64,000 nt of DNA from NCBI RefSeq assembly GCF_003576245.1, contig NZ_QWGA01000003.1:1240001-1304000 (forward strand), given 5' to 3'. The position numbers and the translations under genes were made by a program. This document shows, one piece after another, positions 41,706 through 43,502 of the stretch. Source of the stretch: Henriciella algicola (lineage in GTDB: Bacteria; Pseudomonadota; Alphaproteobacteria; Caulobacterales; Hyphomonadaceae). The notes under the pieces were generated by a model that did not search any database, was not told the DNA's origin, and saw nothing but the letters and a program-made list of their open reading frames with translations. Each line of letters starts with the position of its first letter. The stretch's first letter is position 1.

Positions 41706-43502
41706 CTAGGCGTCTGCCATCATCTTTTCGGCTTTCTTCATGGCCTGGTCCATGCCGCCGACCATGTAGAAGGCTTGCTCTGGCAGGTGGTCATAGTCGC
41801 CAGCGATGAGGCCTTTGAAGCCCTTGATCGTGTCTTCGAGCTTGACCTGCTCACCAGGCGAACCGGTGAAGACCTCAGCAACGTCGAATGGCTGCGACAG
41901 GAAGCGTTCGACCTTACGGGCGCGGGCCACGACGAGTTTGTCTTCTTCAGACAGCTCGTCCATGCCGAGAATGGCGATGATGTCCTGAAGTTCCTTGTAG
42001 CGCTGCAGGATTTCCTGCACGCCGCGGGCAACTTCATAGTGCTCTTCACCGACGACCATCGGGTCGAGAATACGCGACGTGGAGTCGAGCGGGTCAACAG
42101 CCGGGTAGATACCCTTTTCCGAGATCGCGCGGTTAAGAACCGTGGTCGCGTCAAGGTGGGCGAACGAGGTGGCTGGTGCAGGGTCGGTGAGGTCGTCAGC
42201 CGGCACGTAGATGGCCTGGACCGAGGTGATCGAACCCTTGGTGGTGGAGGTAATACGCTCTTGCAGGGCACCCATATCGGTGGCCAGCGTCGGCTGGTAG
42301 CCCACAGCGGACGGGATACGGCCGAGAAGCGCGGACACCTCAGAACCTGCCTGCGTGAAGCGGAAGATGTTGTCGACGAAGAACAGGACGTCCTTGCCTT
42401 CCTGGTCGCGGAAGTACTCGGCCTGTGCGAGACCGGTCAGAGCGACGCGGGCACGTGCGCCAGGAGGCTCGTTCATCTGGCCGTAGACCAGGGTCACGCG
42501 GCTGTCGCCTTCGAGGTTGATCACGTTGGATTCGATCATCTCGTAATAGAGATCGTTACCTTCGCGCGTACGCTCACCCACGCCTGCGAACACAGAGTAG
42601 CCGCCGAACAGCTTTGCGATGTTGTTGATCAGTTCCTGAATGAGAACGGTCTTGCCGACGCCTGCACCGCCGAAGAGGCCGATCTTGCCGCCTTTTGCGT
42701 ATGGGCAGAGAAGGTCGATGACCTTGATGCCGGTGACGAGGATCTCAGCCTCAGTGGACTGGTCGACGAATTCAGGGGCTGGCGCGTGGATTGGGGCGCG
42801 CTGCTTGGTTTCGACCGGGCCGCGCTCATCGATCGGTTCACCGATGACGTTCATGATACGGCCGAGCGTTTCAGGACCAACCGGCACGCGGATCGGCTCA
42901 CCAAGGTCTTTCACCGGGTGGCCGCGAACGAGGCCTTCGGTGGAGTCCATTGCGATGGTGCGGACCGTGTTCTCGCCGAGGTGCTGGGCAACCTCGAGGA
43001 CAAGGCGGTTACCGTTATTGTCGGTTTCCAGAGCGTTCAGGATGTCTGGAAGGTGGCCATCGAACTCAACGTCGACGACGGCGCCGATAACCTGTGAAAT
43101 CTTGCCAGTCGTGGCGGATGCAGAGCTGCTCATGGAAGGCGTCTCCTTGGGAGCGGATGTCGTTTTGGTCTTTGTGGAAGCTGGCTTTTTGGTTGCCGCC
43201 GGCTTAGGGGCAGTATCCTTTTTGGCTGCCGCGGCGATGGCCGGAGCAACATCGGACACCTTGATGCCGCGACGCTCGCTTGCCTGTGCAGGCTTGCAGA
43301 CGCCGCAGTCGCGGGTGTCCTTCTGGCCGAGCGACTGTGCGGTCGTCTCTGCCTCGGCATAGGTCTTGAACGGCCCATGCCACTTGTCATCGTCATTGGT
43401 CTGGTCGCCGCCGACACCCTGGCCGTGATTGCAGTACCGGCAATCGGCCGCGTGCACCCGTGCGCGCTTGTTCGAAAAGTGTTCGTAGACCCAGAAATTC
43501 AT
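41706..43502 (-). CDS. atpD: ATP synthase F1 subunit beta with an N-terminal Cys-rich extension
   Basis: The open frame encodes 598 residues. Residues 124-598 are a normal Atp[10 protein letters not shown], Walker [12 protein letters not shown], catalytic [29 protein letters not shown] and the C-terminal helical domain. Residues 1-75 form a separate domain ([20 protein letters not shown]) with C21xxC24 and C66xxC69, likely metal-binding. Residues 76-123 are an Ala/Lys/Pro/Thr-rich linker. The first ATG has AAGGGG at 8 bases. An internal ATG at 43133 (Met124) has AAGGAG at 9 bases and would give a standard 475-residue subunit. Both products may be made. Confidence 0.95.
43142..43148 (-). promoter_or_regulatory. 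Internal ribosome binding site that could give a standard-length AtpD
   Basis: AAGGAGA on the minus strand lies 9 bases upstream of the in-frame ATG at 43133 ([14 protein letters not shown]). It matches the consensus as well as or better than the site of the first ATG at 43502. Confidence 0.6.

Follow-up and report, generated by a model that had tools for sequence, protein, structure and literature searches.

Why should the gene for one of the most conserved proteins carry an additional domain, and what does the cell make from it? The beta subunit of ATP synthase is such a protein, and F1 is usually taken to contain three identical copies of it. In Henriciella algicola, the reading frame for this subunit begins far upstream of the usual start of AtpD and holds a second possible start. 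We analysed it within a stretch of 64,000 nucleotides of contig NZ_QWGA01000003.1, here called the window, to which all positions refer. The comparisons described below make it likely, in our opinion, that atpD of Henriciella and its relatives is a two-start gene, whose long and short beta products come together in F1, the additional domain being tethered at the crown.

The atpD reading frame and its two starts

The atp cluster of the window is on the minus strand. The long atpD frame of 598 codons (41706-43502) is open from the ATG at 43502 onwards, without an internal stop, and adds 123 residues before an AtpD of 475 residues. It has the following features.

41706-43502, minus strand: long atpD frame, 598 residues, calculated mass 64.6 kDa; residues 132-594 match TIGR01039 (atpD)
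41706-43133, minus strand: predicted short beta, i.e., the AtpD core, 475 residues, calculated mass 51.3 kDa, starting at Met124
43131-43133, minus strand: internal ATG (Met124), candidate start of the short beta of normal length; the Met is invariant in 39 of 39 aligned fusions
43134-43289, minus strand: Ala/Lys/Pro/Thr linker, residues 72-123, calculated charge about +7
43143-43148, minus strand: AAGGAG, internal Shine-Dalgarno site, encoded by the codons of Lys119 and Glu120
43290-43502, minus strand: Cys-rich domain, residues 1-71, with His17, Cys21, Cys24, Cys66 and Cys69
43500-43502, minus strand: upstream start codon of the long beta; Met1 is invariant in 39 of 39 aligned fusions
43511-43516, minus strand: AAGGGG, Shine-Dalgarno-like sequence ahead of the long start, sharing bases with the atpG stop; varies among genomes
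43515-44399, minus strand: gene that we take, from sequence and position, to be atpG (gamma); its stop, TAA at 43515-43517, is 12 bases before the long start

In a profile search, residues 132-594 score 840.8 bits with TIGR01039, against a cut-off of 462.85. With its full core and its gamma and alpha gene neighbours the protein resembles any F-type beta of this family, from which it differs by the 123 extra residues with the Cys-rich domain and the internal start. The normal AtpD length of about 470-480 residues fits the internal start and not the long frame. Eight bases separate AAGGGG from the long ATG, and nine separate AAGGAG from the internal one. The earlier note, made from the letters of the window, had described the uninterrupted frame, these two sites and the C-x2-C pairs at residues 21-24 and 66-69, and had expected beta subunits of about 64 and 51 kDa; all of this was confirmed, the masses by calculation. 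The gene thus has an in-frame internal ATG, a conserved Shine-Dalgarno site belonging to it and a stop codon common to both frames, as a gene with two products should. In the source genome, the Cys-rich domain is found at a single site at E ≤ 1. Between atpD and an epsilon-like gene (40322-40729) lies a frame for a lipoprotein-like protein of 269 residues (40833-41642, minus strand).

Distribution of the fusion

Among 105 genomes of the family, 40 contain the Cys-rich domain fused to AtpD, 55 are without the domain and 10 could not be assigned. Searching with the whole protein retrieved AtpD at E ≤ 1e-150 from 96 of the 105, 39 of them fused. Of the other 57, in which no domain is present, G052 and G071 are interrupted by a contig end, and 55 count as domain-less. 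The 40 fusions include L038 (genome G003), where the contig ends shortly after the core begins. The domain itself gave matches at E ≤ 0.1 in 48 genomes, 40 of them at E ≤ 3.8e-18 and eight at E 0.02-0.074. Four fused genomes have, in addition, a weak second match (E 0.03-0.07), and we take all twelve as chance; the one that was read, in G086, was rejected as a domain copy, being located in a DnaK-like gene. Apart from the weak second matches, no stand-alone copy of the domain was seen in the 105 genomes.

In all 40 domain-bearing genomes the domain is in frame with AtpD, an arrangement far beyond chance. None of the 40 has a stop codon or a frameshift in its 5' part, which the earlier note had named as a finding against its proposal; where the domain is absent, the upstream part is gone or unrecognisable. 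Within genus g1, to which the window belongs, 25 of 29 genomes are fused, two are without the domain and two could not be assigned. Elsewhere in the family the fusion is found in 7/7 genomes of g7, 3/3 of g9, 2/3 of g2 and 3/42 of g4. Its presence in 40 of 105 genomes, including the single-contig genomes G019 and G011, excludes an assembly error. In one g7 genome (G081, locus L037) the AtpD matches the window's protein over residues 1-383 only, in a frame of 684 residues, possibly due to a frame or assembly problem. A second beta-like gene, 48-49% identical and perhaps from an alternative ATPase, is present in G059, G035 and G001 (L061-L063).

Named genomes were also scanned, giving 41 loci, 23 of which are labelled Henriciella, Ponticaulis, Hyphomonas, Hyphomonadaceae or Alphaproteobacteria. 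Outside the family, no AtpD fusion was found among the matches in 385 genomes of the class and 398 of the phylum (best 15 candidates per genome). Titles and the openings of abstracts, from a literature in which few subscription journals were covered, mention neither an extended nor a two-start AtpD.

The Cys-rich domain

Motif and full-length alignment place the domain in an unannotated family of small proteins, which we name YEN-W and which has the pattern W/Y-x-Y-E-N...H-x3-C-x2-C-N-x-G-x-G...W-x-G-P-F...C-x2-C. Aligning 34 members, Tyr6, His17, Cys21, Trp41 and Gly43 are invariant (34/34) and Cys24 is present in at least 90%; some members lack Cys24, or have a single Cys instead of the last C-x2-C. 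Members are usually free proteins of about 70 residues, most of them starting at a Met equivalent to Met1, whereas the window's copy forms the amino-terminus of AtpD. Relatives outside the fused lineage, mostly of this small size, account for 18 of the 41 scanned loci. They include Zavarzinia, Niveispirillum, Mesorhizobium, Bradyrhizobium, Blastomonas and Phreatobacter, and further relatives are labelled Chloroflexi, Thermodesulfovibrionales, Zixibacteria, Bacteroidetes and Candidatus Methanoperedens; many are metagenome bins, so these host labels are uncertain. Small stand-alone proteins with a similar Cys pattern, which the earlier note could only recall, therefore do exist, in several phyla.

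A few copies are found in other contexts. The domain is at the carboxy-terminus of frames L070 and L076, from genomes of family f2, which we take to be transposase-like, and at the amino-terminus of a presumably GIY-YIG-nuclease-like protein in a Phreatobacter bin (L111:3929-4726). A copy on a Mesorhizobium plasmid (L064:2998-3213) has an in-frame TAG near its start and no annotated gene. A phage or plasmid origin was considered and rejected: there were no phage matches, two plasmid records and, in two scans, no confirmed relatives on viral contigs.

AlphaFold2 predicts residues 1-75 with a pLDDT of 90.1 and a pTM of 0.82, as three strands, a helix and a fourth strand. Neither the 29 PDB rows nor the 173 viral rows returned by a fold search with this model reach E ≤ 0.001, and sequence searches of Pfam, NCBIfam, PHROGs and the PDB gave nothing above cut-off for the window's domain. 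DUF6233 (PF19746) gives 16.7 bits for the window's domain, below the Pfam cut-off of 27.6; 21 of the 34 YEN-W members match it weakly at E ≤ 1 (best E 2.1e-5). The domain resembles both DUF6233 and the Ada zinc-binding domain (PF02805) in its spaced Cys and His residues, an EA-containing stretch and a final C-x2-C-x-P. A relation to Ada, a lead that arose from the Cys spacing, was not supported: there is no Pfam match to it, and hhalign against 13 Ada domains gives a probability of 2.2% over 14 columns. N-Ada (1u8b) is the first of the 29 Foldseek rows, at E 5.7 and TM 0.38. From its cysteines alone the domain is probably zinc-binding, and metal binding is plausible. The model of residues 1-215, with a mean pLDDT of 49, is too poor to speak on docking to F1.

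Selection on the domain

The domain appears to be maintained as protein. Over 39 fusions, the domain has a median dN/dS of 0.15, between that of the core (0.07) and that of the linker (0.46), using only pairs with 0.1 < pS < 0.6 (175 for the domain, 543 for the core and 324 for the linker, of 741). Here, as in the conservation, linker-length, opening-energy and codon analyses, L038 was omitted. The four cysteines and His17 are invariant in 39/39 fusions, while their codons vary. Between the last Cys and the internal Met, the linker has 18 different lengths, from 34 to 77 residues, all in frame. Eighteen lengths imply at least 17 length changes, each a multiple of three; we estimate the neutral probability of 17 frame-keeping changes at about (1/3)^17. 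The other frames of the linker contain stops, +1 in 35 of the 39 rows and +2 in all 39, and in no row are both open. That the gene is an accident, in which the stop of a small gene disappeared and atpD acquired a functionless extension, would agree with the repeated loss of the domain in the family, but is very improbable, as purifying selection on the domain, invariant cysteines with mixed codons and a frame kept in 40/40 genomes largely contradict it.

The internal start as a nucleotide signal

All 40 fusions have a Shine-Dalgarno-like site ahead of the internal ATG, as AAGGAG at 9 bases in 33 and as AAGGGG at 6 bases in the seven of g7. No site of this kind precedes any of 337 Met codons of the core. 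In the 32 rows that read Pro-Lys-Glu over the site, Lys is invariant at 13 positions and Glu at 23. Of these 36 positions, only Lys119 (AAG, 32/32) and Glu120 (GAG, 32/32) use a single codon; the nearest rivals are Lys273 and Glu519, with 31/32 each. All codon positions are from the same rows, and relatedness alone is thus unlikely to explain the single codons of Lys119 and Glu120.

The region around the internal start is also predicted to open more easily, requiring 8.0 kcal/mol (s.d. 1.6), versus 10.35 (s.d. 2.7) for 286 ATGs in the core and 10.5 (s.d. 3.1) for the long start. Duplexes with the end of 16S rRNA, calculated for 38 rows (leaving out L035 and L038), have mean energies of −8.5 for the long start and −8.7 for the internal one, with a far wider spread for the former (s.d. 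2.2 versus 0.6); with pairing so nearly equal, the relative use of the two starts cannot be read from sequence. The internal start appears to be maintained as a signal at the nucleotide level.

Relatives without the domain

Of the 55 family genomes without the domain, 27 were read at the start of AtpD. In 20 of the 27, a Shine-Dalgarno site, there in non-coding DNA, precedes the last Met ahead of the core; in L134 it precedes an ATG six bases earlier, and the six loci without a site are from genera g3, g8 and g10. A longer element just upstream, CGCTCC, is kept in 15 of the 27. Close domain-less relatives thus begin AtpD at the same signal as the internal start of the fusions, indicating that the domain is dispensable and that this start is sufficient by itself. 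In L048, a locus nested within fused relatives, the spacing is 8 instead of 9 bases, one base shorter, and register with the upstream frame is lost. On a quick AtpD tree of 72 rows (39 fused; second copies and duplicate loci omitted) the domain label changes 8 times, at least 4 of these forced by starred branches, versus a mean of 24.1 in 500 shuffles. We read this as one early gain of the domain followed by several losses, with transfer as the alternative.

A stand-alone copy behind atpF

Matches to a stand-alone copy of the domain (L158-L160 and L172-L175) are present in 7 of 30 genomes of g295, a genus from a different family of the class. All six intact copies are 65-112 bases downstream, on the same strand, of a gene that we take from its sequence to be atpF. 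The seventh (L175) contains an in-frame TGA, is by position about 235 bases downstream of atpF and looks decayed. A copy in another genus of that family (L161) has different neighbours and, as judged from the reading frames, other relatives of the domain likewise do not adjoin atp genes. The atpF neighbourhood amounts to one evolutionary event in one genus; it is suggestive of a second link with ATP synthase, and could be chance.

Proposed working of the gene

The earlier note proposed that the cell may make two beta forms, and the comparisons support this idea well, with a domain conserved as protein together with an internal Shine-Dalgarno site and ATG conserved as nucleotides. Ribosomes leaving atpG would start at the upstream ATG and make the 64.6-kDa beta, whose amino-terminus would be a candidate zinc-binding domain of about 71 residues on a flexible basic linker of about 52 residues; ribosomes on the internal AAGGAG would make the ordinary 51-kDa beta. 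As the whole catalytic core is common to both forms, the simplest outcome would be F1 rings with tags on some of their three betas. At the crown, the domain would most likely serve as a tether, or a regulatory module, for some partner, be it in the stator or at another place in the cell. We infer production and assembly of both betas, as well as the roles in zinc binding and docking.

With a gene kept able to make plain and tagged beta, heterogeneity of F1 would have a genetic basis, and the fusion would provide a functional lead for an unnamed family of small proteins of several phyla. More tentatively, start-site choice could fix how many of the three betas carry a metal-binding module at the crown, in a ring for which a mobile domain was recruited twice, once as the beta fusion and once as the gene behind atpF; this combined proposal is possible, and we would not yet favour it. 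If true, it would describe an asymmetric ATP synthase with a recruited mobile small domain. An analogous arrangement is described for phage endolysins (PMC9430671), where an in-frame internal start leads to long and short forms, in one example in a 1:5 complex. These share with atpD the common stop codon and a short form with its own start; here, the enzyme is ATP synthase, and the two products and their complex are predicted. A Salmonella study (PMC11005335) reports pairs of N-terminal proteoforms.

Other explanations place the function of the upstream part elsewhere. The linker could be cut, delivering a free Cys-rich protein of about 8 kDa in proportion to AtpD. Stand-alone relatives of about 70 residues in several phyla, a low-complexity, fast-evolving linker and the separate gene behind atpF in g295 agree with this, but a stop codon would achieve the same, yet 40/40 frames stay open through the 18 linker lengths, and in the linkers inspected we noticed no conserved motif except the Pro-Lys-Glu encoded by the site. 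We consider release unlikely.

The upstream part could also be a cis-acting leader, perhaps sensing metal or redox state via its cysteines, that sets internal initiation and the beta:gamma ratio. Since the internal site is inside translated codons, it must be affected by translation from upstream. The distance from the atpG stop to the upstream start is at most about 30 bases, and in some genomes the start follows directly; a copper-responsive upstream open reading frame is described elsewhere (PMC9426467). A leader would have no need of an in-frame fusion, however; domain-less relatives begin AtpD with the same site, and the domain resembles free-standing proteins, so that this explanation is rather improbable.

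The domain might instead allow the synthase, or beta, to bind nucleic acid or another partner that is not an ATPase. This would suit the relatives on the transposase-like frames and the GIY-YIG-nuclease-like protein, as well as the positive charge calculated for the linker. The domain itself is calculated to be near neutral (−1.2), and no nucleic-acid-binding families were found above cut-off; we regard this role as quite improbable. Compensation for an absent zeta inhibitor was rejected: 101 of the 105 family genomes, both fused and domain-less, have zeta (PF07345), and two of the four that lack it carry the domain (G002 and G084).

Amino-terminal tails in other Caulobacterales

With two starts and a domain as the preferred reading for Henriciella, AtpD of the readable loci from family f2 (Caulobacteraceae-like) and from f238 offers a comparison; the amino-terminus was read in all but L169 and L140. 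Most have an Ala/Lys/Pro-rich amino-terminal tail which, like the window's linker, is low-complexity, basic and located ahead of the core. Unlike the window's AtpD, they have no Cys-rich domain, indicating that the basic tail is more general than the domain. No Shine-Dalgarno-like site precedes the second ATG in the long tails of L137, L139 and L141, and in L171 the tail is short and two ATG codons stand side by side. Across these comparison loci, the predicted two-start arrangement accompanies the domain. The Ala/Lys/Pro tails of AtpD in L133, L136-L139, L141, L165-L168 and L170 are reminiscent of histone H1.
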